Both the position numbers and the translations under genes were made by a program. A stretch of 64,000 nt of DNA from Capitulum mitella. Taxonomy: Eukaryota; Arthropoda; Thecostraca; Pollicipedomorpha; Pollicipedidae. Location: NCBI GenBank assembly GCA_030062745.1, contig CP099841.1:24059398-24123397 (forward strand), written 5' to 3'. Below the pieces are notes generated by a model. It was not told the DNA's origin. It saw nothing but the letters and a program-made list of their open reading frames with translations, and ran no database searches. Position 1 is the stretch's first letter, and each line of letters opens with the position of its first letter. Positions 8,194 to 61,300 of the stretch are shown piece by piece.

Positions 8194-8417
8194 AGGTAAA
8201 GGAAGATAAAGGCAGCATAGGCAAAGGAAGCAAAAGGCAGATAAAGGTAGGGGAAGAAAAACCAACAGGTCTCAGACGATGCCAAGAAAAAAGATACAGT
8301 TTGATGAGGACCAACGGGCCCACATCAGGCAACGATGAGTGGGAACGACGAAGTGTTTCTTGCCAAGAGGCAATGGCAACTCTCAAGACATTTAACCTGT
8401 GTGTCATTAACTACCTT

Positions 8418-8787: not shown

Positions 8788-10548
8788 TGGTACACTCATC
8801 AGGCACGGACAAATCGCCTTAGTTGTTCCACGGAGCCACACGTAAACAGATCGCAAAAGTCGACTGACACGAGCAGAAAACTGATGCCGCGGGCCGCCGT
8901 CGCCGGACGCGCGTTCAACTTCAGGGGAATACCAGGGCAGCACACCTCACACTCTTCCCCTCTATCTGTCATTACTATGACGTCTTTCTGCCCACTTATC
9001 CCATTACTGGTATCCCCGATCCCGACTCAGATTTTCCGGCCCACCAACGCCGCCGCCGCCGTCAGCACCTGTGACACAAGCCGTTCAGGGAGCACAGAGG
9101 TACGTGCAGCCCCGGGGTACGAGGGCGGCGCACCTCACAACTTTAATAAATAGATGCTCAACGCTCTTGCTGAAATGGCAATGTCTTGACACTTCTTAGT
9201 CATTTCTAGATATGATGTTCTTGTTTTTCGGCACTAGGTCAGGTGCATGTTGTGCGTGAATCCAATACAGGTCAGCTTCTAGGTGAGTGTAGATTCTAAA
9301 CTGCGTGTCCTGCGAACTTGAGAAGTGTATCAGACAACTTTTTTCCTTGAGAGGATTCAGAAAATTTGGCTTCTTGATCAGATATGTCAGTGCGGCAAGA
9401 AATTGCTCATGGGCTCAGTCTGAGTAAAGCTAACATTTTTAAGATTGATGTGCAACCCCTAAATGTTGTTCAGTTTTGATGAGAATCTCTGTGTGTTTCC
9501 AATGAACGAAATGATTGGGAAAAGCTTTCGCCAGCCACAATTTTCAAAAAAAAAACTCAAAAATACGCCGTCCTGTGGTAGGGTTATTCACAGAGGTGGC
9601 AGATGGAATTCACTAACGTGCTCGTGGTACTCAGAGTATCGAACTATAAAATATTACAATAATGCATGTGCAAGGCAATTTGAGCAAATTCAAGGTACTT
9701 TCCTGTAGCTAAGTCGATTTGAAAATGTCTTTTTTTAGGATCTCCATGTCATATGGACCAGGAAATGTGCATTTCATGACATGTTAGAACGAATGTCAAA
9801 TTTGATCCAGCCTGTCACCTTGCATTTGTATGACCTAGGGTCAGATGGCACGTAGAATATGAAACTAATTTGCCAGGAAGATATTGCCGCGCCAATCTTA
9901 GTGTCGGTATGCTTTTCCTTATAATCAAGTGGCTCTGGGACAATAACGAACTTTTTCGTATTTGACCTGATCTGTGAAACAAAGTATGTGCCACGGGACC
10001 GCAAATTCCGGCGTTATCGACTGCCGTTTAAATCAGCCGGATTGGGCAATTGTTTTCGGAGATAGGCTGGGAAAGGGCATTAAACGCCCTTCCCCATCAA
10101 CTATCAGCACCCATTTACCTAGTTTTGTCCCGACTGCGCTACTGGCGCAACAAGGCCCGGTAAATGGTAACGCAAAAAAGACAATAGTTGTACCACAACA
10201 AGACTAGCCGTGGATGAAAAAACGCCCACATGTATCAGCTCTTTATGGTCAAATAGGCGGTCTAATTCTACAAGAGAGGCACTATAAAGAACAAATTTTG
10301 TTTCACGGCATTGGTGGCACAATTATACACGGGTAACATAAACCAAATAATCGTTGCAAAGTTGCAGTAAAACTTCACGGACTCACCACACGTCCGTGAC
10401 ACTGCCGGAGAGGAAGAGGGAAGGACAAAATCTGCAGGCATGCCATTGCTGTCAGCAAATATCCTCTGTCTGGCAATCAGCTGTCTTAATGAGAAGATAA
10501 TGGGGGGGGCACAATTAAGTAGGCTGGCGCTCATTGGGCAGTTTCCCC

Positions 10549-12450: not shown

Positions 12451-14367
12451 CTAGGTAGCCTCGCTGTCGGACGACGAGTTCTCGTTTTCGGATTCATCAC
12501 TGCTACTTTTCGAGCCAGTGGTATGATCATCGATATCATCGTCCTTGCTTGGTGGCGCATCGGTGTCTGCCACTTCCGTCGGTCTCTGCTTTTTCTTGAC
12601 GAAGATGAAGGCCACTAGACTTGCCAGTAGCAGCAGCATGACAACGGCGATGCCAATACCGATACCGGTTAGTGTTCTGGGAGCGCTCATAGGCGCAGAG
12701 GACGGTGAATCCAACCCATCGTTCGTACCGTTTCCTCCACTGCCTGGCTTACCCTTTTCTGTGACTAGCATTTTCGCCGGATTCGGCGAAAACACCACGT
12801 CTGCCTTCATCTGAGCGAACTGGACGGTGAGCATGGGATCGGACAAAGCCGAACCGATATGCGCTCGGTAAATCAGGTCCAGGTGATTGCTCTTACTCCG
12901 GAACATCGGCCCATCCGGTTCGTTGTTGGCCACGGAGGACAGACATTCGGTTCGTAAATTGCCTAACTTTGAAAGGCCCCACATTAAGTTAATACCGTTC
13001 AAGCAGTCCTTTTCATGAATATTTTGCACGATAAATCCAATACTTCGTTGTAGTTTTGCGAACTTATCCGCGCTTTGCTTGACATTGATTGACACCTGCG
13101 TTTTCGCATCAGGCCCGTGGGCTATTATTGTGACAAACTGATAATACTTAAAGTCATCCAGAACTGCATCAAGCTTTTCGGGTGAAAATTTATGGTGAGA
13201 TAGATCTATTTTCTGCGATTTCGCTATTTCCAAAATTATTTTTGCTTTTGCTAAACGAGGAAATATTGGCCCTGCTTTCTTTTCGCATGCTGCACCAGAA
13301 AATGCTTTTGGACACTTGCAAGCACAATCCTTGTTTAAGTAGCCTAAATTTTGGCACTTCGGTGGTTGTTTTCCATTGCTCCCGCAGGATTTAGCCCAGA
13401 CTTTATCGCAACCATATACAGTATTGAGGCTGTACAGGTCGTAGTGAGACTGCACCATGCCAGCGTTTCGATGATAATCAAGCATGTACTGGTAATGCCC
13501 ATCAGTGGCGACGAAAATGGGGCGCATGTCATCGTCGCCGAATGCCGCCGTCGCGTATTGCATTAGAGACATGTAATCATAAGGTACTGGCAAGTCCACC
13601 ACTTGACCCTTGGCACATCGGCCTCCTTGCGACCAGGTACCGGATAAGTCCTTACCCTGCTTGCTCTTGTCTAGTGGTACCTTAAAGTTTTCGTTTTTGA
13701 CGAACATGAACTTATCGCGATCGGGACGGCTTTGTTGATGGTTGAAACCAAGAGCATGACCGAATTCGTGCGCTGCTGCCACCAGCTCACAGCCATTGGG
13801 CTGGACGGACATTTTCTGAGGGGAATGACTGTGTTTGAACAAGTTTCCAACCATGGACCAGCAGCCACCGTAGTTCCCAACGCAAATTGAACCGTGGTCA
13901 AATTTCTGACTGCAAGGTGCGGCTGGCAGCTTGTGAAATTGTATGCATGTCGTGTCGCTCCAAGTTTTGACTGCAGCTTCGAACACTTTTTGGTCAGCTT
14001 GCGTTTGAGTGTCGAAGAAATACCACGACTCGGCTACACCATTTGCCCTCCATATCTTGGGTCCCGCAAGTACAGGCGTTTGCCGACTTCCTGGCGTTTT
14101 TGGCAAAATCTGCTCGGGGAAATAGGCCATATCTCCGAGGAATACCAACGGAGACTCACCGGGAAAGTCCCGAACATTAAAGCCGCTTGCTCGCATGACG
14201 TTTGCCATCTCTTCGTTGGTTAAATTGTGTTCTTTTTCATCGCTTGGTTGTTCGTAACTGGATTTTGCTGCTGGCCATTTCAGTCCTTTGGAAATCTTCG
14301 CTGTCTCTTCGTGGTGTGGAAACTGAAGCATTACCAAAAGAAGCGTTGCAAAAGCAGAATTATTCAT
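12451..14367 (-). CDS. Membrane-tethered astacin metalloprotease, copy 1
   Basis: This single open exon encodes 638 residues and is an M12A zinc endopeptidase by motif. Order: a short hydrophobic signal segment (about 5-16); a prosegment with the aspartate-switch motif FLGD (76-79), which in the family coordinates the zinc in the zymogen; a catalytic domain (about 105-320) with zinc motif HEFGHALGFNHQQSRPDRD starting at His200 (Glu201 catalytic; His200, 204 and 210 as ligands) and Met-turn SLMQY (Met269, Tyr271); an EGF-like module (cysteines 338, 348, 350, 352, 361); and about 170 residues I do not recognise. A transmembrane helix (about 568-590) is followed by KKKQR and an acidic serine-rich tail. 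It likely cleaves proteins at the cell surface. Two usual residues differ: Gln for Glu after the third His, and Gln for His in the Met-turn. It has no introns. The start is the first ATG before the hydrophobic segment, matching copy 2. Confidence 0.93.
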   Translation of the reverse strand: MNNSAFATLLLVMLQFPHHEETAKISKGLKWPAAKSSYEQPSDEKEHNLTNEEMANVMRASGFNVRDFPGESPLVFLGDMAYFPEQILPKTPGSRQTPVLAGPKIWRANGVAESWYFFDTQTQADQKVFEAAVKTWSDTTCIQFHKLPAAPCSQKFDHGSICVGNYGGCWSMVGNLFKHSHSPQKMSVQPNGCELVAAAHEFGHALGFNHQQSRPDRDKFMFVKNENFKVPLDKSKQGKDLSGTWSQGGRCAKGQVVDLPVPYDYMSLMQYATAAFGDDDMRPIFVATDGHYQYMLDYHRNAGMVQSHYDLYSLNTVYGCDKVWAKSCGSNGKQPPKCQNLGYLNKDCACKCPKAFSGAACEKKAGPIFPRLAKAKIILEIAKSQKIDLSHHKFSPEKLDAVLDDFKYYQFVTIIAHGPDAKTQVSINVKQSADKFAKLQRSIGFIVQNIHEKDCLNGINLMWGLSKLGNLRTECLSSVANNEPDGPMFRSKSNHLDLIYRAHIGSALSDPMLTVQFAQMKADVVFSPNPAKMLVTEKGKPGSGGNGTNDGLDSPSSAPMSAPRTLTGIGIGIAVVMLLLLASLVAFIFVKKKQRPTEVADTDAPPSKDDDIDDHTTGSKSSSDESENENSSSDSEAT

Positions 14368-14830
14368 GTCGTCCGAACACTGATTTAAACATTTCCAGTC
14401 AGTAAGAGATATTTGCCAGATAGCAAAACTTTGCCTTTAGGCATAGCGCCAAAAATGTAGACAAATTTGGAGTACGCACAAAACTGGTTGCACGAAAAAA
14501 AAACCTTTCGTTACATGCAGCCCAGGACCTACATGACGCAAACAAATGACTATTGGCAATTTGTCAGTTTAACACTGCAAGCAAGTCTCAGGTTAAATTC
14601 ATTCGTCTCAGCAAGTCCGGTAAAATGAAACATTAGTCTCGAGCGTTTCGCATATCGCATCCTCTGAAAAACCAAGACATTTGATGCAACCTAATTTGGC
14701 TTACGCAACGTCGTGGCGTTTGGACCGGCCCATAATAACTGGCCGAATTCCTGGCCATTTTCTGTGAGACCCGACATTTACGTTTCCAATGCCGATAGAA
14801 GACTAGATTCTAAGATGCTCCGCGGACTTC
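14368..14830 (-). promoter_or_regulatory. Conserved 5' flank of astacin copy 1
   Basis: The DNA upstream of the start codon is alignable with the flank of copy 2 (22527-22830), including TTTGCCAGAT near 14410, GTAAAATGA near 14620 and GTCTCGAGC near 14637. The region probably holds the 5' UTR and promoter. I saw no clear TATA box, so the transcription start cannot be placed. Confidence 0.45.
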
Positions 14831-30419: not shown

Positions 30420-33400
30420 GTAAGTGGAACAATTTAAAAGCATCTTACTGCAGCTGTGTCAAGGTTCCAAAAAGTTTGGTCTAATGTGATTCATTTTTTG
30501 TAGTTTTGAAGGCTGGCAGTCAGAGCGAAAAAAATGTCATTGGCCATGATGGCATTGACCCTATTGTGCACTCATTGAGGAAGGATTGGCCTATAATACA
30601 GCTCGTTTTTGTGATGCTTGCACATAACATTTTGCCTCAGTGCAGTCTGATCAGTTACACTGACAATGGAAGTCATACTTGAATAATGGTCTGTTGCAGG
30701 GAGTTGGTAACATTTATATCAATGCAGAGGTCCATATGTCATAGATAACTTAGTACTGAAGCTCTCCTCATCAGTTAGATTGCTCTTTTATTGCCAAGTC
30801 TAGGTCTTAATAACATCCTTGGCCACTGTCAGTGAGCCAGATGTGTGGAACATATTGCAGGAGGACAGGTTTGTCAGAACCATGGATTGACTGATTACTG
30901 GGGCTAAGGAGTGCACCACCTGTGAGGCCATATGGCACCCAAAGTCAGAACCATTACTGGCTGGATCTAATATATTGTTTATGTAAATATGATAGGAATC
31001 AAGCAATCATTGTTTAGTTTGGTCAAGCAAAATGGCAATATGTAAGGAAGCAATTAAATAGAATATAGTGTGAACCAGCATAGCAGATGTGCTTGATCCC
31101 ATTTTCTAGAAATCAGTAGTCACACATTTGTCATTGCATCAGGTAACAGTTTGTGTGAGAATACAGTGTGTTCAGAATGTAATTCTGTTCTGTCATTTCT
31201 GCACAATTTCCTTTGCAGGGCCAGTTGTCTCCAAGCACAAGAGTGCATGCTGTTCTGGGAAATGAGGCATGCGACCTGGACTCAGCAGCATCGACCTTGG
31301 CTTATGCCTACCTGCTGGACTCGATGGATCCAGAAACACTGGTCTTGCCAGTGCTCAACATTGCGGAAGATGAATACCCTCTCAGAACAGAAGTTGCCTT
31401 CTTTTTCCATAAATTGGGCATTGCCAAAGAGCATCTGGTATTCAGGTGATTACTTTTATTTGGCAGAGCCTATGGTTTGTTCAGGTATACTCAGTGAACA
31501 CTTGCCATTCTGATGGGTGACAGTTATTGTAACTCATTGTTATTGCAGTTTTAGAACCAACTGACTGCTCCTGTAAGCCTCATCTACCAAATATTTATCT
31601 GATAATGGTCTCCATTGTTTTTTTAAATACACATATATCTAAGGATTGTATTGCTGAATGACTGTATGTGCATCAGGTTTAAAAAACTGGCTGGATGATT
31701 ATGCATGAAATGTGTTCCTTTTATGAAGTGCATCAAGGCACATAATTGCATCTGCTTCAGCCTGTATGCCTTGAATGATGATATTCCTGCTTTATCAGTG
31801 CATCTAGCTTTCTATTCCATGTAGAATTAATTGATGTCTTTGCAGAGCAATTGGCAAGCTTTATTAGTGCATCTAGATTTTTGTTCTATGTGTAATTATT
31901 TCATGTCTTTGCAGAGTATTTGGCAAGCTTTGTCAGTGCATCTAGCTTTTTGCACCATGTAGAATTAACTGATGTCTGCAGAGCGTTTGGCAACATCAGA
32001 CTTCATTTTGAAGTTGTAGATGAAAAAACATTGTCCCATCAGCTTGTGCTTATTTGTCTTTTTTCATCTTATTTGTTAGCCAGACACACTTTTTCAACTC
32101 AAATGATGACCATAAAAGAATGGCAATAGGAACACTGGTATTTTCAGCAGACTGCAGGCAGTTTTGTGTGGTACCAGCAGCACCCAGCTGGCGGCCGCGC
32201 TGCTGGCTGCTCCGTTCCTAGCGGCCGCCGTAACGCCGCCCGACCGCCGTGACACCGCCGTGACGCCGCCTGACCGCTGTGACGGCGTGTGCCGGCAGGC
32301 CGGAGGTGGACCTGACCAGCCTGCACCGGGAGGGCCGGCTCCTGCTTACCCTGGTGGACCGACACCGGCTGGACGGGCCGGACGCGGCGCTGGCGCCCAC
32401 CGTCGTCCAGGTGCTGGACCACCACGAGCCGGACCGGCCTCTCTCCGGTTAGTGGCGCCCGTCGCCGTCGTCCGCACTGTCGACCGCAGACCGAGCATCC
32501 CTCTGCTGCAGTGTTGGAAACCTGGTTTTTCTTCCTGATGTCATTGTACAAATTCTCTTCTGGAGTATAAAATGTCATGCGTTTATGTGGGAAACATGGA
32601 CTAACTAAGTGCTTTGCAAGCATACGTGGCCAGGAGGGGCGCATCCAGTGGCTCCGTTTGGGGGGGGGGGAGCAAACCAGTTTCCCTGGGTCTACATGGT
32701 AGGTCAGCAGAGTCGTTAACCGGGGGGGGGGAAGGCGGCTGGCCATGGGTTCGGAGCGTACTTCAGCGGCCGAGTATGACTGGTAAACCATCAACGGAGG
32801 GGCGGGGGGGGGGACGCTGGGCAACTTCAATCTCTGGTTGAGTAGGTATATTCATGTCTTGTGGGGCAGGGACAAATGACCCTTTTGGGGTACAAATTTT
32901 TTCTTGGAGTATAATTTTTTGGTGCTCCTTGACACTAGATAAGGACAGTTTTTCTAACACTGCTCTGCTGGGTCATCAGTCGGGACGGGGGACCCCTCTG
33001 TCGAGCCATCGGTCGGGACCGGGCGCCCCTCTGGCAAGCCATTGGTCGGGACTGGGAACACCTCTGGCGTGCCGTCGGTCGAGAGCGGGTACCCCTCTGG
33101 CGGGCTCTCGGTCGGGGCTGGGAGTCCCTCTGGCGAACTGTCGCTCAGGACTGGAGACCCCTCTGGCGGGCTGTCGGTCGTGACAGGGGACCCCTCTGGC
33201 GGTCGTCGGTTGGGACTGAGGGACTGGACCTCGTCGGTGGCATCTGCTGCGGCCGCTGGAGGCAGAGTGGCCGGCTGTGGGTGATAAATGTGCTGAGCCG
33301 CGCAGAGTGGAGGCCAGACGGGCACGACGCCATGCGCGGTCATTGGAAACTCTTCTGGCCACTGCAGTTTTTACTCCCAGAAACTCGTCAGGGTCGGGAA

Positions 33401-36400
33401 AACTAGAGTCGAGCCGAACGCCTTTGGTATGAAATAGAAAGTTGCGTTGTCAGCTTTGCACTTCAGGACCAGTTTGAGGGAAGAAACGAGTCGTTCTATT
33501 GCATTCATACGTTTTTATTTTGAATGGTGACTTACAGTGAGTTACTAAGATCATTTCACATGCTCATGGCATCCGATCAAAGACGACCTTTTTAGGGGGG
33601 GGGGGAGATAGGACATTCAGGCCGCGTCGCTTAAGTTCTCTCGGTGTGTTGACTGTTTTATATGGGTAATGTTGCGATATGCTGTGACAGCTTTGTTCTG
33701 TGGATCGGCTCACCTGTATAGGAAGCGGAGTGTCCGTGAAGTCAGGCTTATCGCAGACCTTGACATCTGCGTACTGGAGAAGTGTCCGACTGCCGAATGT
33801 ACCTAAAAAGGAGACGCTTGTTCTGTATCAATTTTTTATGCCCAGCAACTGTGCGATAGTGGGTTGGGTGATATGGTATCGGGAGAAATTGAAGAGTGGC
33901 GAGAGAGGATGTGAGCCGCTGAGTGCGAGTGCTTTCTGTCCTCCAAAACTGCGATGTTCACTGTCGTCGGCGGCCACCGGGCGGAGCCCTTGTGGTGAGC
34001 TCAGTCGGCTGCTTACATCCTCATTACGCCTCGGCACCGATCGAAAGACCAGCCGTGGGCATTTTGGCTTACGTTTTGTTGATTTTTTTTACTTCCCCGT
34101 GGTACCGGTCGCGGCCTGGCTTTCTGTTGGCACTACTGATGTTTTCTGACCTGTGTTACGGGGTTCTCTGCTGACTGACTCGGGCTGCGTGCAGTGTGTG
34201 CGTGAAGTGTGTTCCCGTCCTCCCGTTACTGACCGCCCGCAGGCTGCCCGGAAGTGTGTTCCCCGTGTTCCCGCCGGCTGCCGGCCGCGCTGACGCTGTC
34301 CGCGACGCCCGCAGACGACGTCACCATCGAGCCGGTGGGCTCGTGCTGCACGCTGGTGGCCGAGCGGCTGTTCCAGCTGAACCGCAGCCTGATCGACCGG
34401 ACGACGGCTGACCTGCTGCGGGGTGAGCCGTCCTCGGCCGGTGACGGACCGGCCCGCCAGGCCACCGCCGGCCGGTGTTTATCGAGCTCGGGAGGGGGCG
34501 ACCTCGTGCTGTTGGTCCGTCGCCTCGATATGTGCCTGGATGGTTCCCGCTGGTTGCGCAAACATGTGTGGGTTAGCTTTCCATGACGGTGATGTTTACG
34601 TGTACTTCGGTCCGATATGTTGAGCTTTTTAGACGATGGGCTTATTTGTGGCATGGCTCGAACCTGCAGCGATTATGACCGTGATGCAATCACTCGATGC
34701 CCTGTGCCCTCGCTTCTGGTCTGGTCTGGCCATCTGATTGCAAAACACCCTTGCGATGGCTTCCAGTCTCCAACGTTCGAGCCGTTTCAATCCCCCTGGG
34801 TATATTTTAAGACTGTTTAAAATTCCTGGGACCACTGCGGTTGACCTCTCACGAGATGGCGCGCCTCTGCCTGAGCAGGCACCATCCTACTGGACACGGT
34901 CAACATGTCGGCTGCCGCCCAGCGCGTCACCGCCAAGGACCGGCTGATGGTGTCCTTCCTGGAGCCGCTGTCGTCAGGTGGGTGTCGCCAACGAGTCCAC
35001 GCCGGCCGCTGGGAAGGCTGCTGGGAGGGTGACGGTGCAGAGTGGAAGTTGGATGGATCGATGGGAGTGATGCATGTTCGTTGTCCGTAAAATGGCGTTT
35101 GATGTTTTTTTTTTGGCAGCTTCTTGCAGCACTTTCGGACATCACGCCAAACAGAGTCGTTTTCCCCGAGGGCCATTTTGCCTATGGGTCGATTCTCTTG
35201 TTCGGGTGATTGTGCACCGGAAGAAATCATTGATTAACATGAAACGGTGTTGATCCACATGGTGGCCGCTGTCAGAGGGGTTTCTACAAACGCAATTAGT
35301 CTTGTATTATTCCATTTCGTGTTAATTGAAAGTGCTAAACAAAAGCTAAGCTTTTGGGGTAATTAGTGCAGTGGAATTAAGCTTCGAATAAGAGTACAGC
35401 GTAATGTATATTTTCGTGGACAAGTGTTTTTATTGATTTTCTTTTCGGTTCCCCGCTCGATTTGCAAGTTGTCATGCTCATTGATCTCAGCACCCATCGC
35501 CACCCGATGTGAAGTGGTAAAAAGTTTCGTTATCCGCACCATAATTATTTTTCTGGTGAAATTCATGCGTTACCAAATGTCTGCGACTCCAGCGTTAAAT
35601 AACACTGCATCGACCACACACAAGCCACGCCTTTTCCGCGCCACCGCATGGAGCTGGATCCGGTCATCCCTCGGTTCACACGTCGTCTTATAATGGGGAT
35701 TGCGGCCCACGTTGGAGTCGTCAGGCGGGTCCGTGGTCTGCCTTACCCTCCGCTGTCCGATCACTGCTGGGGCGCGCGGCAACCGTGCAAGCCGTGCCCG
35801 CTCTCTCTCGCGCACTGTCACCGTCCAGGGGCGTGGCCGTGCCCAGTGGGCCCGCTGTGGGCACGCGCCGCTCTTTCCGTGGCGAACTGCGGCATGGCGC
35901 CGCCGCCGACGGCGGGACACGCTTGCTCCTCATGCGGCTGCCAAATGCGTCTGTTGTAAGGCGGCGGACGGGGCCGGTTTTTCCTGTCTGTGGTGGAGTG
36001 GCCGGACACGGGACATGTGCTGCGTGAGGCCACACTCGCCCGCGGTGTGAGTGACCAGACACGGGACATGTGCCGTGTGAGGCCACGCTCGCCCTCACTG
36101 CCTGTGGAGGAGTAACCAGAAGCGGGGCCGGCGCGGCTCGACGTCATCCTCTGACCGGCCGGGACGCTGGCTGGCGGTCAGTATTTGGTGCGGCGCCGTG
36201 CGGGGCGGCCCGACGCTGTGGCGTGAGGCGAACCAGGCGCGCTGTGGCCGCATCTCCGGACTGGAAGAGCGTGAGTTGCTGTCGAGATGCTGTCGCGCGA
36301 TGCGCTGTGGGGCAGTCACGGTGGTCGGGACGCTGGGGAGGGTCGTTCCCGGCTCTGGTCGCCCAGCTGGTGTAGCCCCGAGGTCCAGGGCGTGTGCTGT

Positions 36401-39400
36401 AACGGCATCGGACGTATGGCGTGGTGGGCGACGATGCCATTTTAGCCTTTTGGAAAGTAGATACCATTTGCGACGGGGTAGCCATTGACAAAAGATTTCG
36501 GCCCTTTTGTACGTTTCCTCTATTATTCCTCTCAAAAGTGCGTTTTCGTGTTTCGGATCGCGATGTGATCGCCTGCTTACTCTTTGTGTGGTATCGTCAT
36601 TAATGATGTTTGCTAAAAGCTTCTTTGATGTAGAGCATTGCGGTGCTGTTTGTTTGGCTTTGGCCCACCCAGACGTCTTTTTTTGTTAACGTTTATCGTC
36701 ATTGAACAACCATGGCTTAGTAGGTCAACCCAAACAAACAATTATCTTCATCGACTTTAAGTTCTGAAATCGCCCAGATGCTGATGTCTTAGATATATTA
36801 AAAAAAGACAGCGACAGGCATGTATTTTTGAAGTTGTTGCTGCGAAAGAATTTGTTCTCGGTTGCATGGCATCTGCGTTTTCATAACGGATGCATGTTTC
36901 TTTCATTGGTTTTCAGAAAGTGCCGTAAAGTTTTCACACTTTATGGCATCCTCAGAAGTCGTCAAGATGATAAGTTATTGAAACCTTCATGCATCGCGAA
37001 TTTAATTCTTCGTTCGCGACAGTCAGTTATGTCAGTCTGTATGTGTTGCAGCTGAAATTATATTTGCTTCTTCTTGTCTCGTGGTAAGAGCAGACTCACT
37101 CGATGACTTGACGACGCCTTACAGGTCGTTTTACAGATGTCGGCCGTGCCATCGTGTTAGCGTTCCGTGTCTGGAAATTCCTACCCCAGTTTCGGGCTGG
37201 GTGGCCCGCACCAGTTCCGCCTGTTCCTGAGAATTCATATCCGCACTTAGCGCTCGGGTGTGGTTTCAGCCTTCTCTTCCTTGTCGTAAGCTGTGCCAGC
37301 ACTGCATTGGTGAATGATATTCGCGTTTGGTGGCGCGGTATGTGCAAAGTTTGGACGACGTTAGCTGTACGGCATTGTTGCGGCCTTGGTGGTTAATATG
37401 CAGCGAGTCCGGTCGAAATGCTGACGTCGTTCTTACCCGTATGTTTATTCAGCTTATTTCCGCATCTTCACGGGCGTCATGGGAATGAGGCCTTGAGTTT
37501 CGGCCTTCGATAGGCCGCTTCCTCACATCTGTTCGGCGCGTCCACCATGCGGTAGTATTGACACGTCAGCCATTAGACGGGCCGGGCCGGGCCGCAGCTG
37601 ACCTGCCTGTGACCGGTCCTGTGTACGTCTGCGGCTGACCCGCCTGTGACCGGCCCTGTGTACGTCTGCGGCTGACCCGCCTGTGACCGGCCCTGTGTAC
37701 GTCTGCGGCTGACCCGTCTGTGACCGACCCTGTGACGTCTGCGGCTGACCCGCCTGTGACCGGCCCTGTGACGTCTGCGGCTGACCCGCCTGTGACCGGC
37801 CCTGTGACGTCTGCGGCTGACCCGTCTGTGACCGGCCCTGTGTACGTCTGCGGCTGACCCGCCTGTGACCGGCCCTGTGTACGTCTGCGGCTGACCCGCC
37901 TGTGACCGGCCCTGTGTACGTCTGCGGCGCGTCCCGGCGGATGTCGTCACCGGTCCCAGTGTAAACAGCGCGGCCGGCCGGTGTCGCGGCGGCCCCGGCC
38001 CGGCCATACAAGGGGTCGCCGCCGCCGCCGGACGGGCCAGTCGTGCCGCGAGCAGCAGCCGCCGCCGCCGTGCGAGAGCCCCGCGCCGCCTGACCGCGAC
38101 CCGCACCGCCGGCAGGCGAGGGCCAGAACCAGCTGTTCGACATGCTGCAGAAGGCCAAGGGCGACGTCAGCCAATTGAGCAGCTTCGAGCTGCTGCGTAA
38201 GGACCAGAAGACTGTTGAAGGCGGCGGCCTGCGGCTGGTGGTCTGCTCGGTCCCCATGCTAGTCAAGGTGAGGTCGGCGCGCGCAGCGCCGCTCGCACCG
38301 CCGCTCGGCCGCCGGATGATGTTCATTCCAAGAGTTGTGTAACCTGTTTGACATCTTACCTGAACGGCGAACGTCGGGGTCAAACAGTCGTGGTGTAACA
38401 CTGGGAAAGGCCTGTCTCAGTACAAGGTGTTGTGTTGTATTTTTTTTTTCATTGCCGGCAGTCATGTATTCACGTACTGTTTTTCCATACCTTAGAGAGA
38501 ACCAAGAACTGGTTTTTCCTTGGAGGATTTCACCATTGCCATCGCAGTCAAACCTTTCAAGTTCTTTGCTACGTACATCTGAATATCTGAATATGCTAAT
38601 TCTGGAAGTGCGGCGACATACATGTTGCATCACCATGTTGAAAGGACTCTCACACTTCGTGTTACTGGTATCTGTGATACGCAGCTGGTCGAAATGTAAG
38701 AAACAGTTCTCGACGAACGGGCATTATCTTAACATGTTTGACGTTGTTTGCTTTACCTGCACATTTACTCCTGCGTTTGTCGTCTTTTGGTTCTTTCACA
38801 ATGGGTTCCCATATACTCTTCTGTCCCGTGTTTGTTTCCATTTGTTACCTTTTGTTCTGTTCTAAGGGTTGCCGCTTATTCAGTCTTGTCATAAAATGTC
38901 GTCATTGTTCTATGCATACGATTGGAAGTCGCCGCCGTGGCATAGTGGATAAGACCAAACCAGAGAGTCCGATGTGTGGCAGGCACTACATTCGAGTTCC
39001 AAAACGGGGAACTGTATTCGGCCTGATGCTGAAAGTCAGCCGGTCACGGCCGGCCATTTCGTGGAGTGTCGGTGATCCTCCAGCGCCTTCGGGTTTGGTG
39101 TCTTGGGCAAAATTATTCCGGTTTTGGAAACTCGTTGGTGACGGGTCAGGGTCCGGCAGCAACCTCCGCTTCGCATTTAATCTGATACCAACGCCGCCCA
39201 CGTCGTCATGTTTTGATTATTATTTTTATTATTGTTATTATTATTATTATAATCATTGTTATTATTATTATCTCTATTGTTTCTTTTATTACTGTTATTA
39301 CCATTAACCGGTTTTGGTTATCTTGTACGTTTGTTTGGACTGTAGCGTAAACCTGTCATGGGTTGCCGATACAAAAATACTTCCCACTGAACATTCGAAA

Positions 39401-42400
39401 TGGTTTCGATGTTGGCAGTTCTTTTCGCACATGTCGGGTACCGTTCGCGAGGTTTCCGGCCTGGTCTGCTGACGTTACGTTGGCCGCGTCTGGTACCGGC
39501 AGGATTACGCGGGCGCGCCGGACGCGGTGTCGGCCTGTAACCAGCTGTGCCAGTCGACCGGCCGAGACCTGGTGGTGTTGATGGGCAGCCAGTCGGCCGG
39601 CGCCGAGTTCACCAGGGACCTGGCCGTGTTCTCCGTCCGGGACGACGTCAGGGACCAGGTCAGAACTGAGGGACGTCAGGGACCAGGTCGGAGCTGAGGG
39701 ACGTCAGGGACCAGTTCAGAACTGAGGGGAGTCAGGGACCAGGTCAGAGCTGAGGGATTGGAGGGAGGGATGTCATGGAGCACACCAGAACTAGGGAGGA
39801 CGGCAGAGGGGAGGGCAGCGCATACATTGTTGGGCACTGCTGAAGATTATGCGGATACATAAAAGGATAGCAGGCGATGGCCTCGGCCAGATTCTGGGAA
39901 ATGGGATATGAGAGAGGGAGCGATCAGTGTGCCATATGCCAAGGTCGTATTCGGGGAGGGGAGGGAGGGAATAGGACGGCTGATGCAGACTGAACTGGGA
40001 GAACAAGGAGGGAAAAGGGGCGATTGATGCAAACTCGGGGAAAGAGGGAGGGAAGAGGACGACTGGTTAGGACTCGGGGAAGACAGAGGGAAGAGGACGA
40101 CTGGTGCAGGCTGGGGGAACTGAAAGGGAGAGGACGAGTGGTGCAGACGCGGGGAAGAAGGAGGGAGGAGGACGACTGACGACAGCAGACTCGGAGGAAC
40201 TTGAAGGGAAGAGGACGAATGGTGCAAGCTCGGGAAGAGGGAGGGAAGAACACAGTCTAAGCTGACTGCAGTGGCGAGAGGACAAAGATGGAGAATGGTT
40301 CAGTCCGGGGTTGAAGCTGCGAGGCGATGGGTGATAGTAGTGCGTGTTTGTCCAGCTCGTGATACTCATCGCTCGTGTTGTGATGAAGCAGAATAATTCG
40401 CAGGACTGGAAGGTCTTTGCGTTTCCGATCTGTTCCTCGTTGGAGACGAAGTGACGGCTGGTGGCCAGATTTGCTCGCTGCGTGAGGGGATGATGACACC
40501 GCGTGCGTCCCCAGATCTGCACGCTTGTTGGAGGAGGCGGTGACGCCCTGTTTGGGTCTGACCCGGGTGACGTCCCCACACGCGCGTCTGGTGCTCTACA
40601 CGCAGGCCAACGTGGCGGCCTCCGCGGAAGGCGGTGCTGCCGCTGCTCAGGAGCCATCTGACCGGCGCAGGTCGGTAAACTGACCGCACGGGAGGGGTCC
40701 ACTGTGGCCAGGTCCTCCTTAACGTGCACGCTGCGGCCTTCGGGTGGATTGTATGCTATGGTTTGACAGAGTCCTAACTAGTTCCCGTGCTGTGACGAGT
40801 CATTTCTTGTGTTTGTGTTATATTTTCGTTGGTATATGCATGTTTCTAGTCATGAAATGTTGAGCTTGCTTTCATTTTTGGCGTGTTGCAGTGTCTGTCG
40901 TGGTAAGAGAATACAGCATTGTGGCTTCAAAGGAATGCTGACTTTGGAGACTTTCTCAGTGGATATCGCATACAAATAGCGTTTGCAGGAGCACATTGGA
41001 TTGTTAACCATAACCATGTTCTGGCATGACGTCTGTGCCATTTTGCCACGGCTTTTTTGGCACCATCCTTATGTATCCTTATATATGCCATGGAAAGCTG
41101 TTCCAGCACTTGCACATGCGGGGTAAAGGATGTGCGAGTTTGCGAAACAGAATACAGTTTCGGGACAAATTATTCAGGCTAGAAATGGATGCACTTTCCC
41201 GACTGAAAAATACTTCATGAGAACGGCGGAACTGAAAGCGCGAAACAACAAGAATGCCTTTACATTGCCACGCTCTGATGAGCATGCCCGCTGTAAGTGG
41301 GTGAGACGCAACGGACGGGTGATGAGCGGGCTGCCGGCGGTAGTTTTCACGGTCCGTGTCCCGTGCGGTCGGTCGTCTGGTCGGTGAGCTCCGGTGGGTC
41401 TGCCGGAGGGTGATGATGGGCGCGCCTCGTTCCTGGAACGGGCGGGCACCAGCGTCCATCACTGACCCGTCACGCCGGCCCCGACTGCCCGCCCGGCTGG
41501 CATTCCAGTCACGTGATGACCAGATACACAGTGTGCTCCGTCCGCCTCGTGTCCGCCGCGAAACAGCTTTGCCGCCCTCTGTCGGCGCGCCGAGCCGTCG
41601 CTCCCGCGCGGTGAGCGGCGTTGCGCGGCCGTGGGCGGCTGCCGGCTCGCAGCGCGCCGCCGGCCGGGCCGACAGAGAAGGTGGCGGCCTTGAGCGGTGC
41701 CGCCCGCTGCACCTGTCTCCGGCTGGACGGGTCGGAGGTTGGCCGCTCGCCAGCGCGGGGGCTCGGCCGGGGACGCTCCGGTCACGTGCGAATGGCGCTC
41801 CGCCTGCTCGGTCGTGCACCGTGCATGCTTTAACAGCACGATACATTTCTAGGTGGGGATGTTTTTTGTGAATTAGTAGGAGTTTCATTGAATTGCGGTC
41901 TTTTGGCTCACAGAATCAGAGGTCTGTTTTGCTGGGTATGCAGGGATTTACCACTGTGGGGCATGTGACCTCTGAGTGTTTTTGTTGCTGTCAGTGTCAG
42001 TGCAGAGCAGTCGGCGGGATCGTCCGTGCCACTGTCGCCCCTTGACCGGGCCGTGCCGCAGACGGTTCCGGAGAGCTGTCGCCGGCGGGCCGGCCGGCCG
42101 CCCGCGGGCCGCCGCCGCCGCTGGCCGCCTTCAGCGGGCTCCGGGCCGAGCTGCCGCCGGACGTGCGGCCGCCGAACGGCGTCGACCTGGGCCTGAGCGC
42201 GCAGGCCGTCACGCTGCTGGAGCCCACCAGCACGGTACGTCGCCGCCCGGCGCTGTCTGCCGTCTGCCGTCTGCCCGGGACGCCAGGTCGCCGCTGGGGG
42301 TCGGCGTGGTCTGATATATGCACGTTACTGGGACGGTGCGGTGTTGTCATTGTTCGCGACGGTGCACCTCGTAGCTGTGGTGGTCTTTTACGTGTGGAAA

Positions 42401-43344
42401 GGACGGTGCAGACATGGTGGTCTTTCTGAACTATGGATGCCATCTTGTCTTACAAGCTGTTCCATTGCGAGCTTGCCAGAGTGAGCCACAGGCCAGATTT
42501 TCCTTAGCATATGTCGCCGCTGAAGGCTTACGCTGTTTGTGTAATCGAAGTGGCCTCGAGCCTTTTTATTTGTTTGTTTTTTTTTGTCTGATAGACTGCA
42601 GAGGGCTAATGCTGTTTGACAAATGTCGCCGATGCATTATCAACATGGCTGCTTGGTATTTCTGATGTTTGACAGCATTTTCACTTCCGTCGCTGCTATT
42701 TTGTGCTCATCAACTTCGCTTCTGGATAGGCGCTCAGTTTCTGCTTCACGAGCAGGGGCCATGCTCTGCGTTCCACCGCTCCCTCATGGTATCGCTGTCC
42801 TCGGCGACGTCCCCCCGGGAGGACGCGGCCGCCTATGCTGTTCAGCCCCGATCCAAGCCGCAGCGGTCGGCCGTCACCTGACCGGTCCTCCTCTGTCCCG
42901 CACGGCGGCAGCTCTCCTAGCCTGACCGTAGCAGTGACCGGGCCATCCCCCTGTGTTGCGCAGGGCGGCAGCTCGCAGAGCTCGGCGTACAACTCGGTGC
43001 CGTACACGCCGCAGAACAGCGTGGCCGACTCGGACTCGATCGCCGACGTCTCGCTGCCGTCGTTCAACTCGCGCGAGCTGCTGCAGCGCATCGAGCTGCG
43101 GCGCGGCCCGCTCGGCGGCTTCGAGGGCGCCGACGACATCGGCGCCTACCCGTTCACGCCCAAGAACAGCTTCGTCGAGAGTAGCCTGGAGACGGCCTAC
43201 CGGCAGATGAACATCGCCGAGCTCGACTCGGACATGATCCTGCAGAAGGTTCACGAGAAGAAACGCAAGAGCAACCTCTTCGACGACATCACGGAGGAGG
43301 ACGGTGGCGGCGGCGGCGGCGATGGCGGCGGCGGCGGCAGCGGC

Positions 43345-43375
<31 letters not shown>

Positions 43376-46300
43376 GTGCGGTCGGCGGCGGCCCGGTCGA
43401 GGACAGGTGAGACGGCCTCTCGCAGTAGTGCTCGCCGCTCGCATGGATGTGCCCGCTTGGCTGCCGGCCGCCGCGCGCCGCTGCCGCCCTCTGCCGGCCT
43501 GCCGCGGGTCGGGGGCGCCGCCGGGTCGGAGCCGCCGGCCGTGGGTCGTCGGGACGTGCGGGTCAGGGCCCGCGCTCCGGGGGGACGAGACGGACGAAGG
43601 TGTCGCGGGTGCCCGCTCCGACGGGCCCCAGCACTCGTGTAAGCGCTGGCTTTGTCCGGGCGGAGTCGGTAGAGGTAGGCTGCTCACCCCCGCTGCGCGC
43701 CACTGGTCTGGGACGGGGCGGCGATGCTGGTCGCGGCACGCTAGAACAGTGCGTCCGGCGGAACCGGCACTGGCCTGAACAGTCTGCGCTGTCATGCTAC
43801 AGTGGTTTTGAGTGAACTTTTTCCCTGGAACAGTCCTTTTGTTTCGACTCGCATCGGAGTTGGCGAGTGGGGTATGAATGAACGCCAGTTTGTTTGCAAA
43901 CGGCTGAATGAGTTATCAGCATTGCCACCTAGTTTCAGATGACCAACGCGTCTTCCAACTGGGATAGTGGCCATCTTTTGTTTCGTCGTACTTGCATCTT
44001 TGATTCACGTGGCGTCAGTTGGGTAATCGTGCATAAGCAATATATTACGTGTGACGTACGTCGAACGCACTTGGAGCGGCCAGACTAAGTTTTTCTTTTC
44101 ATTTATGTGACGCTACCTTGCATGTTATCACTGTGTTGCTGTTGCCTTGGCTTGTTTGGAATGTTTTACTCGGCTACCCTGTTTTGTTATGCCACTGGTC
44201 AATATACGTGCAATAGCCCCTGGATGTCGCGGTTTTATGTTTTCGTGCATCCGTTGTTGAATGCGAGTGCATATGCCGGATCGCTCGTATCTTTTCGAAG
44301 CCAGAGCTGTGGAAGTCGATGGTAACGAGTTAATTATCCTCAACGATGAAGTGCACGGTATACAGAGCGGGCAGATGGGCGCTAGCGACTCCTCGGGACT
44401 ATCGCCCGTAGGGGCAGAGTATCTACTCTGAAAGTCATGTGCTCAAGTTGCCATCACTTTGGCCAGGGCGTCAATGTAATCCTCCGGATATGACTATCGC
44501 TCGCACGCGTTTCCGCCGCGCTCGCGCTGCGGGCGGTGCCGACGTCCCCTTGTCGACGGCAGGTGAGTGCCTCGTCAGATGGGCCGGTTATCCCCCTCGC
44601 GGCCGGAGCGTCCCCAGACGTCTGGGAGCTGCCTCGCTCAGCTTGCTGCGGCGCTGGTCACAGCCGTACGTCCGGCTTGAGCCGAGCCAGCCACCGAGCG
44701 CATCTGTTCTGGGAGGTAGTGTGTGGGATTACCATAAGCTGGAGCGGATGAGCACCGTGTGGGATGAGAGTAACCCGTCTGCATGCACGTCGCGGTCTTC
44801 GTAGTAACGTCACACTCATTTACGTTGGCTGTCCTCATGATTCCTCACATGGCTGACGAACTCGACCTGCATCTTGCGAATTCGGGCATTCTGCTGCGGC
44901 CTAACAATGGAAACGATGGAAAAGGCCTTAGATACTTTTGAAAAATGCGTTCACTAATCGTGCTTCTGTCCAAGACTAAAGCAGCCCCATCTTGCAAGGC
45001 GATCCGCAGATCAGAGTACAGTACGATGAAAAGTCTTGCATTTGTATGTTTGTTTGAGTGGGGATCCTTTAAAGCGACACTGTTGGGTTCACCTCAGGTT
45101 AGCGGCACGCTGAGCAATGTGCCCGACCTGCCTACCGCTCTCTCATTCCTTGTTTGAGGCGCCCCGGTGTGAAAAACTACTGCCCAGGCCGGCGCGTGAC
45201 TTTTCAAACAGCTGTCTATGAATAGAAACGAACCGCGATCACGTGCTCTGATGAACCGGACGAGAAGCATGAAGATGATGTCCACTTCTTCCCGGGGTCG
45301 TTCCACCTTGTGGTACCGGAAACTTGCGCCGCTCGTGCCGAGTGCTGCGCGTTAATTCGAAACCGGACCGACGGGTCCGGCTCGAAAGCCCACGGGCCTG
45401 CGGCGGGGTGACCGCTGTCGCCGCACCGTGTTTGTCCGCTCCACGTGCACCGTCTGGTCCCGGCTGAGTCACAGCGTGCGATGTCTGGGCGAAACCATAT
45501 GAAAGATTTTGCCTGTAACAACGCCGGTCGGAACGTGGACTTCTCAGGAACGACTCTGAGGTTTCAGATGACATCCCACGCCAGACTGGGAGGAGAGTCG
45601 CTGCATGGATGCTTGCGTGTCGTATGGTGTATGGTGGCACCTTTTCCTGCGGGCAACTGACACCTGCTCTGACATTTGGCCGCACTCGCTTTTGCCTGGT
45701 TCATGGTGGAAGGGACTATCGAGGTAACGTGGGACTTGTTTCTTTGTGGTCCGTTGATTATTAACGGTGCGATTAACCGCTGGGATTGTTAATGTCGCAC
45801 CTGGTCGGTCGTTGTCGCTTGGCAACCGGTGAAACACCCAGCTGTTCTGGGGAAATCACTTATAGTTTGCACCTATGTCGAATGTGCTATTTTTCGAACC
45901 GAAAAAAGTAGCGTTGGTAACTTGCGTTTTGGCACAGCATGGCTGGAATATGACCGACTGGTAAATCATCGCTCACGCTTTAGAGTTCACTTACACTGAT
46001 ACCTCGCTTTACTCAATCCGGCCTCTTTGTTGTCATGCCGGGTTTTCCTGGCGTTTACCTGTTTCAAATTCCCCATCAGACTTGCGGCTTCCTGTCGGTG
46101 CGCTCCGGTAGAGTCCGGTGGAGCCGGTAGACCTCGCTCGGAGCCCGTTGATTGGTCGGCGGCGTCCAGCGGGCGCGGTGGGCGGCCGGGAGCCGACCGT
46201 TGCCAGTCGGACGGGTGCCGTGCGGGCGGGTGGGTTGTGGTGCGTGGCTGTGGAGCGGGGAGCGGCTGCCAGCCGTGTGCCGCGTGCTCTGGAGGTCTGG

Positions 46301-49300
46301 AGCTGTGGAGTGTAGCAGGGGCTCGGCGGAACTGCGCTGCCTGACTGACCCGCACGGACAGCCGGACCGCCGGCCGGCTCAGGTAATACCCCGCCCGGGG
46401 ACGGGTTCACGTGAAGGTCAGAGGGGCGCCGCCTGCCACCTGTGACGTCATGTGACCCCGGTGAGGCGGCGGCCGGCCGGGTCGGTCACGGTCCGCGGTC
46501 ACTTGCGGCGGTCACGATGAAGCGCTGCGGTCACGATGACGCCCGCGGCCGAGCGTGTCGGCTCGCCGGGTAACGGCTGCGTACGGGCGGTGACGGGCGA
46601 TGACTGATGGCGGGGCGGGGGGTGACTGATGACAGGCGCTGTTGACCGAGCCGAGCTGGAGACTGCCGATTGCCGGCTCGGTCGGAGTGACGTCCGTACC
46701 GTCGCCGCAGAGTGCACCGTCCGTGACGCGGGCAGTGTCGTCGCACGCAGTGCGGTGTCACCGCGGCACCCGGGCGGTGTCACCCCGTCACGCTGTATGT
46801 GCCGTGGCAACAAAGGCAGACGCCGCTTTGAGTCCTCGCCGTATGGCCAGGCGATAACGACTGTATGTGCCCGCTAACTGCGACGAAGATAATGAGACCC
46901 CAGAGAAGGGAGTGTTGACGTCGTGGCTGAAGCTTTTTGTCTCACACGGCCGACCCGCGGACGGGCGTGAAGCGGCCTGTAATGGGCGACAGCGGGGCAT
47001 AACAGCGCGTCCAATTCCTCAATCATTTATGGAGTTTTTACGGCACCTTGGATGAGATCTTTCGCCGGGCCACTTGACTGCTGTTAAAAACCTGGGCGGT
47101 GAGCGCGTCACAAAAACGTCTGCCGTCGGCGAGAGGTTCAGGTGGTCGGTCTAGGACCGTCGGAACGGTCCAAGGCCAGCCCGTGCAGCGCGCATCGCTG
47201 GCGTGCAGTCATGACCACCACCATGGCGTGAGAAGCGTGATTGTGGCGAGCCTGCTGCCCGCGGACGGAGAGGGCCACAGCCGAACCCGCAGGTGTTCCG
47301 AGGGCAGTTGCCAGTGTTGGAGCTGTTGGCGGGTATGGTGAACTGAACGTGGCATTGTCGGCGGGCGTGAGCGTGTTCAACAGTCCAGTCGATAGCGATA
47401 AAAAGTTGATGGCGCCTTGAGCCCGGGTTTCGAGTCACGGTTCCCTATTGTCGGCACGTGGAGTATGCATTGCCACAGTGCCATGTGAAGGTACAAACGC
47501 AGCTCCCAGAAGCGTTAAAAGACACGCCCATTTCGGATGGAATTTGAAGGCGTGCACCAGCGAATTCAATCGGTAAATTGCGGTCATCAGTTCAGCAAAG
47601 GCTTTCAAAGCGTCAAGCTTTCTCTTCATTCTGTTTGGACCACTCTGTCATATACATTGTCTCGGAACTCTGAATTAACAGACGTTAGTCGTGACGTTCA
47701 CCGACTGCAAAAAAGACATTAAGCATCTCCTGGCAGAATTGGAAAGCTTTGGTTGGGTCTTATGAAGGAGGGCGAGGTGCTCGTTTAGACCAACCGTGGT
47801 GAGGAGCGGAGCTCGTGCCTCGTGAAAACACGGGCATCGTTTTCTCAAAATAATTGAGCCCCAGCAATGGGTTTGGCCATGATTGTAGGATTGGAACACA
47901 TTCCAGTACGGAAAAATGAATTCATCGGACCCTTAAATGTGACATTGGCAACGTATTTACAGTACTTCATTTTGTAAAGCAAGAAAACATTTTGACGGGT
48001 CAAGACATTGGTATTGAATTCCATCCCCTAAATTTCATTTGGTAGGGAAAGCTCTGTAAGTGCGTTTTCCACAGGTGCGTTTTCGTGATCAAGACAAACG
48101 CGTCCAAGACGGGTACTGGAGGTAGAAAAAGATCTGTCGCCGTCAGCCGGCAGCCCATGCTTTTCCACAGCATGCTCGGGAATGTCGCCAACTGCTGGCG
48201 TGTTGTCGTCTTGGTCGAGCCGCGGTCGCAGTAATAAGTCCCGGGGGATCGATATGAACGGACGGACTATGGGCGATCGTGGAGACGCGGTTCGACATAA
48301 AACTCACCGTGGGACCTTACTGCGGCGCGACATGCATTCGGAACTGCCGTCTCCCGCCGGTCGGCTCACGTGAGGCGGGCCCGGCAGTTCCAGCACTGTT
48401 GATCCGATCTCGGGCGCCCAGGTGGCCGAGCGCCCGAACGCCGAGTTCGGCGGCACAAAAGAGGCCGGCCGGTTCGCGCCGCCCCGCGCGTGGCGGACCT
48501 GCTCGCCTGGCCTGACGGCTGCCGGGTCAGGCGTCCCGGCCGGCAGGCGGTCCCGACTTGCCGGCGCCGATCCCGGGCCGGTGCCGGCTCGGAGCGGCCG
48601 TGGGCGGCGCGTCTCTGACGGGATGAGCTCCGGTCCGCCGCGCCTCCCGCCGAGCGTGGCCACGCGGAAACGTAGCCGGCTCCGTCCGGCCCGGCCCTGA
48701 GCCCGCACCGGGGACGTGGAGCTGAGAGAGGTGTCTGACCGGGACTGGAGGACCGGGGACGTGGAGCTGAGAGAGGTGTCTGACCGGGACTGGAGGACCG
48801 GGGACGTGGAGCTGTGAGAGGTGTCTGACCGGGACTGGAGAACTGGGGACATGGAGCTGTGAGAGGTGGCTGACCGGGACTGGAGGACTGGGGACATGGA
48901 GCTGTGAGAGGTGTCTGACCGGGACTGGAGGACTGGGGACATGGAGCTCAGAGAGACATCTGAGGCATCTGAGCGGAACTGGAGGACCGGGGACAAGGAG
49001 CTTACGGAGGCATCTGAGCGGAACTGGAGGACCGGGGACAAGGAGCTTACGGAGGCATCTGAGCGGGACTGGGGGACCGGAGGCGACAGGAAAGCATTGT
49101 ACCGGAACTGATCGACGTGATTTATATCAGAAGCAGTGAGGCTCTGGCCATCCCCAGGAATTCCTGATGAGCAGCCATGCGAAGGACTGTTATGGCTGGC
49201 CGGCGCCTGTTGTTGGTAAACTCCCCTCTAAACACACTTGTCCAGGCGGCCCATTACGTCGATCTAACGTCGGGAAGCTGCATTGGCTGGGCCGTATCGG

Positions 49301-58300: not shown

Positions 58301-61300
58301 GAGGGTGTTTTGTACTGGACGGCAGTCCGCTGCTGTCCTATAGTGGATGGTCTGCAGACATGTGCCGGGATCTCGATGGAATGCAGGTTATCCTCGTTTT
58401 GCGTCGAAATGTAAACCGACCACGGTAAGTGTTGTGTCACCTGGGCACCGCTTTGTTCCGGAGGGGCACGACCTTTCCGAGCTGACGCAATGACCCGCCC
58501 AGGTCAACGAGAAGTTGCTTACAACACGGGGATGACCTGCATTCCGTTGGGATCCAGTCACATGTCTGATGGTCTGTATTGGGCGGCCGTGTGCTAGTGT
58601 CCTGTTGTCAGTGGTCTGTATGGGGCGGCCGTGTGTTAGTGTCCTGTTGTCGGTGGTTTGTATGGGGCGGCCGTGTGCTAGTGTCCTGTTGTTAGTGGTC
58701 TGTATTGGGCGGTCGTGTGCTGGTGTCTTGTTGTCAGTGGTCTGTATTGGGCGGTCGTGTGCTGCTGTCCTGTTGTCAGTGGTCTGTATTGGACGGTCGT
58801 GCGCTGCTGTCCTGTTGTCAGTGGTCTGTATTGGGCGGTCGTGCGCTGCTGTCCTGTTGTTCAGTGGTCTGTATTGGGCGGTCGTGTGCTGGTGTCCTGT
58901 TGTCAGTGGTCTGTATTGGGCGGTCGTGTGCTGGTGTCCTGTTGTTAGTGGTCTGTATTGGGCGGTCGTGTGCTGGTGTCCTGTTGTCAGTGGTCTGTAT
59001 TGGGCGGTCGTGTGCTGGTGTCCTGTTGTCAGTGGTCTGTATTGGGCGGTCGTGTGCTGGTGTCCTGTTGTCAGTGGTCTGTATTGGACGGTCGTGCGCT
59101 GCTGTCCTGTTGTCAGTGGTCTGTATTGGGCGGTCGTGCGCTGCTGTCCTGTAGAGAGTGGTCTGTGCGTGGCGGCCCTCCGGTCGTGTTCCGTTGTGAG
59201 TCCGTATCCGGCGGCCGTCAGCTCACGTCCGATTCCTAGCGCCCGTTAATCTCCCCTGTACTTCCTCCGGAGAAGTTTTGACGTCAGCCCGCCGGGCGCT
59301 CGTCGATAATTCAGGGCGCGGCTTGTTCAACACTCTCACTGCAGTTCGTTCTGCTTGAAGAGAGGGCCAGACCGCGGCTCAGGCGCCGCTTGGCCTGTAT
59401 TTTTGGGTGGCAGTGTGATGGCGGCAGACGCCTGTGGGTTTTTCAGAAAGGAGTTGTCATGTGACCGTCGATCAACACGTGCTGTTCTATCAGACTGCAG
59501 TGAATTTTAACTGTATGCGACTCCCTGTCCTTCCTGTTTGCAGTAGAGCGTATTGTCATCGGATGCAATAGGTGGGAGGAACGTTAGATGTGTTTTTCGC
59601 AGCTTTTCAGAGTGTCTGAATATTTCATTTTTGCGTCACCAAGCACTCAATGCCGTGAACTTTCACGGATGCTTTGATGCTTTTACTCCTGGGTTCGCCG
59701 AAATTTGGGCTCCATTTGCCGCCAAATTGTCGATTTTACGGCACCAATACCCAGATAGTGTTTGGAATATCTTGGCCGGTACGGGCACGCTCAGCTATTT
59801 CAATCATGGCGGGCGGTCCTATTTTTGGCCGGCGGACGGCATTTCTCCGCCATTATCGCGATGGACTCCGTCGGAAGCGTCCACCGCTGGGAAGGCGCGC
59901 CCGGTCGCCGCTGCCGGCCTGTTTTCTCTGAACATAGCGTCACGCGCCGGCCGCGTCCGGGTCTCGGCTCCTGACGGCGCGGACCCCGCTCACGTGCCGG
60001 CGCCGGCCGCCCGCTGCTGCTGGAGCGGCGCCGGACGGTCCGGCCTCTGCTGACGCCACCGTCGCTGCTCGCAGCGGTCGCCAGTGCTGGCGTCGACGGC
60101 GGCTTCACCAGCGACCCGGACGAGGACACGGCCACCTTCAAGTCGGCGCTGACCTCGTCGGAGGCGATCCGTCGCCGCGGTGAGTGCCCGCCGGCCCGGC
60201 GCCAGACTACGGGCACCGCCGCTGCATGCTTGTCGTTCGTTGCACGACTGCCGTCGTTTTTGCCGCACGCGTATGCGCCGTTTTTGTGGCTGCCGCCCTC
60301 GTTTGTCGCCCCGCGCCGGTCGCTGGTCCTAATGACCGTCCGCCGTGCACGATCCGCCCTGCTGCGCTGACCCTTGACGTTGTCGCCCGCCCAGAAGACG
60401 CGCCGGCCATGAACGCGGCCGGGGAGGTGGCCGCCGAGCCGGCGGCGACCCAGCCGGCGGCCGACCCGGCCCGGCCCGGCGCTCCGCCGCCGGAGCGGGC
60501 CGCGGACGCGGCCGCCGCCAAACTGTGGCGCGGCGGCGACGGCCGCTCGGTGCGCGACATGCTGGAGCACAGCCTGGCCGGCGACGAGTCGACGCGGCTG
60601 GGCAGCGGCAGCCGGCTGCAGAGCAGCGGGCCCGAGTCGCTCGGGCCCGACTCGCTCAGCCTGCCGACGAGCGGGCCCAGAGTCGCTCAGCCTGACGCCG
60701 CTCGAGGACGACTACTACGAGGACTTCACGCTGCCGGGCACACACGAGGCGGTCATGTCGCGCCAGAAGAGCTTCCGGCGCCGCGTGCGCGCCGCGCCCG
60801 TCACCGAGCCGGACGCCGACCGGATCGAGCGTTTGGTTCGGGCCGGCGAGCTGGAGCGCCACGGCAGCATCCGGCGGCGGCTGGTGGCGCCGGCCGCGCC
60901 GGCCGCCGCCAGCCCGGGCCGGTTCGGCCGCGACCTGCGCGAGATCGAGGAGCTGATGGCCGAGGACGGCGACCAGGTGGCGCTGGACGAGCTGCCCAGC
61001 CTCGGCCCGGTGCTGGGCTCGTCCACGCCGAAGACGCCCGGCGACCAGCCGGGCTCACTGCCGCCGCTCGACGAGCCCCTCAGTCTGGAGAACAGCGCCC
61101 TGATGCGCATCATCCGCGAGTGCCTGGACACGGAGAAGCTGAAGGACATCTACACCATCAGCGGCCGCCTGCAGGACATCCTCACGCAGGAGGACATCCA
61201 GGAGATCCTCGAGCACAGCGAGATGTACGCCGAGCTGCTGGGGGAGGCGATCCTGGCCGAGTTGCGCAGCTCCATCTCCGAGTCGCCACCTCGGCCGGCG

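Follow-up and report, generated by a model that had tools for sequence, protein, structure and literature searches.

Exon 8 of a PRUNE-type gene in the DNA of Capitulum mitella carries two one-base frame changes, and the extra bases responsible are very probably insertion errors of the assembly. The window, i.e. the whole stretch of DNA that was analysed, is 64,000 nucleotides long. Provided that the plain exon borders are used, both frame changes are shown, as are the misfit in phase, the coding character of the middle and last segments of exon 8, and further extra bases in other coding stretches of the window.

The PRUNE-type gene and its domains

The plus strand of the window carries the PRUNE-type gene (DHH and DHHA2) of an animal, of which nine exons were traced, each with AG and GT borders. 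The exon numbers are those of the present analysis, and the tracing begins at exon 2.

31219-31445, plus strand: exon 2, with the motif GNEACDLDS; open, with AG/GT borders and a GC3 of 0.52, inside the PPX1 alignment
32299-32447, plus strand: exon 3, with the DHH motif; GC3 0.94; borders, codon model and PPX1 alignment
34315-34422, plus strand: exon 4, with GSCCT; borders, codon model and PPX1 alignment
34879-34977, plus strand: exon 5; borders, codon model and PPX1 alignment
38116-38267, plus strand: exon 6, where DHHA2 begins; Pfam DHHA2 30.7 bits on 38094-38267
39503-39658, plus strand: exon 7, DHHA2; phase 0 at its end; donor within a 28-base tandem array
40515-40670, plus strand: exon 8, end of DHHA2; two frame changes
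42062-42234, plus strand: exon 9, 173 nt; phase 1 entry
42964-43406, plus strand: exon 10; phase 0 entry; glycine-rich end

In Pfam, the DHH domain (PF01368) of this gene scored 35.0 bits. The score for DHHA2 (PF02833), the C-terminal domain of PRUNE/PPX1-type phosphoesterases, exceeded the curated cut-off of 27 bits both as assembled (47.8) and when exon 8 was read in three frames (57.4), the three-frame reading covering positions 2-125 of the 126 in the profile. The DHH and DHHA2 domains were aligned with those of yeast PPX1 (PDB 2qb6) over residues 12-344 of the 350-aa joined reading to 40670 (E 5.8e-19). This alignment covers both the GNE.xDxDS and the DHH motifs, as expected for the N-terminal DHH part of the PRUNE/PPX1 phosphoesterases. 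Unlike the distant yeast PPX1, the gene continues into exons 9 and 10 and has a glycine-rich end in exon 10.

The BCH domain, which marks PRUNE2/BMCC1, gave no Pfam match in five stretches between 42961 and 63916, and the gene may leave the window; the coding stretch 63704-63916 presumably resembles the acidic part that precedes a BCH domain. No relative of the upstream part of DHHA2 was found among the pattern matches in genome contigs (86) and viral contigs (15).

As to the composition of the region, exon 2 (31219-31445) has a GC3 of 0.52, and the values for the remaining intact exons (32299-43406) are abruptly higher, at 0.88-0.97. Beyond 32 kb, the GC content of the window rises from 0.44-0.49 to 0.55-0.70, and G exceeds C and T exceeds A on the plus strand. 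Tandem arrays lie in the GC-rich half at 37597-37928 (a 37-base unit in 9.1 copies), 48707-49080 and 58570-59218. The window contains no tRNA genes, and no Rfam families at the gathering score.

Exon phase and codon usage in exon 8

Exon 8 is bordered by AG before 40515 and GT after 40670, and its length of 156 nt is 0 mod 3. The six exons ahead of it comprise 891 nt, or 297 codons, and are stop-free with an end in phase 0, and exon 10, read from its first base (phase 0), places the start of the 173-nt exon 9 in phase 1. Because the preceding exon ends in phase 0 and exon 9 is entered in phase 1, the length of exon 8 must be 1 mod 3. The preliminary description had stated that the phases fit only with two bases fewer; the misfit of 156 nt bears this out, but the border phases taken by themselves permit either 154 or 157 nt. 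The order of the frames, 0, +1 and +2, led to the choice of two single extra bases, and the true exon of 154 nt proposed earlier is indeed the one selected by this order, the codon path and homology.

The codon-usage test uses no homology and assumes that exon 8 is entered in phase 0 at 40515; its codon frequencies were trained on seven other exons of the same gene (385 codons). Frame 0 contains a stop inside exon 8 and has a GC3 of 0.62, compared to 0.88-0.97 in the seven other high-GC exons. For the middle part of the exon, the scores in frames 0, +1 and +2 were -46.2, -3.7 and -91.1 bits, and for the last part they were -21.5, -18.3 and -0.1 bits, respectively. The best codon path runs in frame 0 to about 40524, in +1 to about 40621 and in +2 to the end, and scores -0.3 bits in total, compared to -44.3 bits for a single two-base step (44 bits worse) and -67.1 bits with no step. 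None of 500 simulated intact exons showed a gain equal to that of exon 8. A stricter penalty of 12 bits for each step again yielded these two one-base extras, whereas calls were made in 0 of 300 simulated intact exons of 156 nt. The two zones are as follows.

40519-40526, plus strand: first extra base, frame 0 to +1; codon path 40524
40620-40627, plus strand: second extra base, frame +1 to +2; codon path 40621

Both positions are good to a few bases, and the exact bases cannot be fixed; in this sense the extra bases placed earlier at about 40521 and about 40624 stand as two one-base extras, of which the first could in principle be bypassed by weaker splice sites. Neither site sits in a run of three or more equal bases, and therefore these are not typical homopolymer errors. 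As a test for another intact copy of exon 8, a codon scan with a threshold of 12 bits found no plus-strand segment between 39661 and 42073, a weak test in that the broken exon 8 was missed too.

Homology across the three frames

No single open frame runs through the end of DHHA2, where three frames are read in turn. Relative to the DHHA2 profile, the gene as assembled has its last third out of frame, and the match stops at profile position 87. The Pfam DHHA2 score was 48.5 bits with exon 8 omitted and 47.8 bits as assembled; frame +1 over the whole exon gave 50.0 bits, and frame 0 followed by +2, as well as +2 throughout, gave 48.8 bits. When frames 0, +1 and +2 were read in turn, the score reached 57.4 bits and the match extended to position 125 of 126. 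Essentially the same effect was seen in phmmer searches against the PDB, where the as-assembled protein matched yeast PPX1 with an E of 0.011 and the match stopped at the start of exon 8, whereas the joined frames matched it with an E of 0.00046 and the match extended through exon 8. The earlier claim of family similarity through three successive frames is thus confirmed by both the rise from 47.8 to 57.4 bits and the PPX1 match.

The joined exon 8 and PPX1 have in common the pattern Q-NV-A-(S/T)-RK-V-P-L. Because PPX1 has no residue between S/T and R, one extra base is favoured over two missing bases at the second site.

The individual pieces were less informative in Pfam. No family was matched with an E of 1 or less when the joined exon 8 (50 aa) was searched by itself, and DHHA2 was matched neither by exon 7 alone nor by the middle-frame piece of exon 8 alone, exon 6 being the sole single piece to match; the last-frame piece of exon 8 gave a weak LRRNT match (E 0.12) and no DHHA2. 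A search for a second intact copy of exon 8 with tblastn of the two pieces in the window gave self-matches and otherwise nothing better than E 0.084.

Frame changes elsewhere in the window

In the other high-GC exons of the PRUNE-type gene, a frame change was called in none of the seven, and exon 2 is open, so that decay spread over the exons, as expected of a pseudogene, was not observed. Under the codon model, exon 2 scored -105.5 bits with no step and -101.4 bits with three missing-base steps; these steps were dismissed as a misfit of the codon model, the GC3 of this exon being 0.52.

A further extra base was found in a coding stretch downstream.

60394-62035, plus strand: long coding stretch of about 1.6 kb, from codon usage; one extra base at about 60679

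This stretch scored -505.3 bits without a step and +196.4 bits with one extra base, and calls were made in 0 of 40 simulated intact stretches. A near-copy of the sequence at about 60679 begins 45 bases upstream and is without the extra base. Among 29 candidate pairs for an intron at this position, the best donor had 5 of 9 consensus matches, compared to 6-8 in nine PRUNE donors; no good intron explains the frame change. The stretch had no accepted Pfam match, and its coding status is that given by codon usage and the open frame alone.

Testing of ten high-GC segments with a total length of 3,294 nt gave three called steps, each of them an extra base. Exon 2 aside, all frame-changing differences called in the coding sequence of the window are extra bases. 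Further insertions in nearby coding sequence, as expected of insertion error, are present, namely that at about 60679 and a weaker, compensated pair in one of two astacin genes.

12454-14436, minus strand: astacin copy a, intronless; Pfam Astacin 106.8 bits
20607-22589, minus strand: astacin copy b, its paralogue, intronless; Pfam Astacin 107.3 bits; +2 and +1 extra bases

The two copies are of 661 aa each and are identical in 472 of 664 columns (71%). Relative to its sister, copy b has +2 and +1 bases, 26 columns apart, after which the frame is restored, and the remaining five gaps have lengths divisible by three. The compensated shift sits at the end of the astacin domain, where a tyrosine-glycine-cysteine end, aligned with a cysteine of meprin, is retained in copy a and lost in copy b. 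The family cysteine suggests that copy b gained bases, rather than copy a losing them. The Astacin score of copy b is not below that of copy a (107.3 vs 106.8 bits). Elsewhere in the window, an inverted pair of about 71% identity, perhaps a mobile element, lies at 7287-8181 and 8415-9568.

Cause of the frame changes in exon 8

Exon 8 would be a normal coding exon of which the assembled sequence holds two single extra bases, introduced by base-calling or consensus error and surviving polishing; the true exon would be in frame and the PRUNE-type protein whole. We infer a technical cause, and that the extra bases are absent from the real animal. Real decay should also bring deletions and substitutions, whereas insertion-biased sequencing error leaves extra bases. 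Assembly error is favoured because all called changes, exon 2 aside, are of the latter kind, because of the phase misfit and the codon path, because the DHHA2 and PPX1 matches run to the domain end once the frames are read in turn, and because the stretch around 60679 and astacin copy b also show extra bases, with the other PRUNE exons open. The simplest cause named in the preliminary description, long-read insertion error, is accordingly best supported as far as insertion error is concerned, and its long-read origin is suggested by the insertion bias. In PMC8445201, indels are described as the most frequent long-read errors, which bring frameshifts. The window resembles the long-read assemblies described there in having frame changes at more than one place in otherwise coding sequence, here read from the assembly alone.

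Several observations speak against assembly error. The two putative errors are clustered, lying within some 100 bases of each other in a single exon. Weaker splice sites offer a bypass of the first, with 3-4 Pfam bits lost, and neither site sits in a homopolymer. The astacin b pair adds up to +3, the total expected under selection if the change were real, and the Astacin score of copy b is not reduced relative to copy a.

Within the assembly-artefact reading, the consensus of two merged alleles may be considered, in which reads are misaligned where the alleles differ at neighbouring positions, with extra bases as the result. For a collapsed diploid assembly, PMC8445201 attributes apparent frameshifts to allele merging as well as to long-read indels, but per-base error explains an insertion-only pattern more simply. 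Allele merging is a minor possibility, whose share is contained in the high probability given to assembly error as a whole.

A recent loss of function in the animal, in which the insertions are carried and PRUNE is truncated in the last third of DHHA2, finds its evidence in the frame-0 stop inside exon 8. In contrast, the eight other traced exons are open, the codon usage in seven of these being that of a functional gene, and the extra bases in 60394-62035 and in astacin copy b would require several independent recent changes. Pseudogenisation is thus disfavoured, and we consider it unlikely. Somewhat less likely still is that the insertions are real and fixed, in which case the animal would recently have lost the DHHA2 end of its PRUNE-type protein and kept the catalytic DHH part, a naturally occurring loss of the phosphoesterase half.

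Splicing offers a way round the first change. The earlier description had named transcripts with both extra bases, joined at other splice sites into a different, open protein, as the outcome that would overturn its reading; a GT-AG search of the sequence yielded two weaker joins that bypass the first change with exon 7 intact and none that bypasses the second with the conserved stretch intact. Nine GT-AG joins from exon 7 lead directly into the middle frame, so that no extra base is needed at the first site, and seven of them shorten exon 7. The joins from donors 39674 or 39686 to the acceptor at 40487 keep exon 7 whole and the reading open, and the IC pair is replaced by 17 or 21 residues. 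If the second change is also read through, their DHHA2 scores are 54.6 and 53.5 bits, respectively, compared to 57.4 bits for the plain join. Donor 39686, with 6 of 9 consensus matches, comes near the plain exon 7 donor with 7, and donor 39674 has 5. A 28-base tandem array of 4.1 copies (39644-39757) spans the end of exon 7 and its donor, so that a copy of this donor is present in a shifted phase.

PPX1, however, lacks the 17 or 21 residues that stand where the plain join has two, the alternative joins cost 3-4 Pfam bits, and the plain sites fit at least equally well. The second change persists under this reading, since each of the nine GT-AG pairs able to span it, at distances of 34-127 nt, takes out some of the conserved stretch or reads it wrongly. 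Splicing was thus rejected as a bypass of both changes. That real splicing accounts for the first change, with the second alone an error or mutation, is improbable; an extra base is the likely but not the only reading of the first change, and the second is firm.

Programmed ribosomal frameshifting at both sites is scarcely credible, as nothing but the frames themselves supports it and we know of no precedent for two programmed shifts about 100 nt apart.

Implications

The observation in exon 8 is a real one about the assembly and is not a biological novelty. Such errors can be exposed without reads from the phase of the exons, their codon usage and a near-copy within the sequence. If three extra bases per 3,294 nt of high-GC coding sequence are typical, many genes in the assembly would be mis-annotated. 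An uncritical reading of the window would yield a truncated PRUNE and lead to a false gene loss in comparative work.
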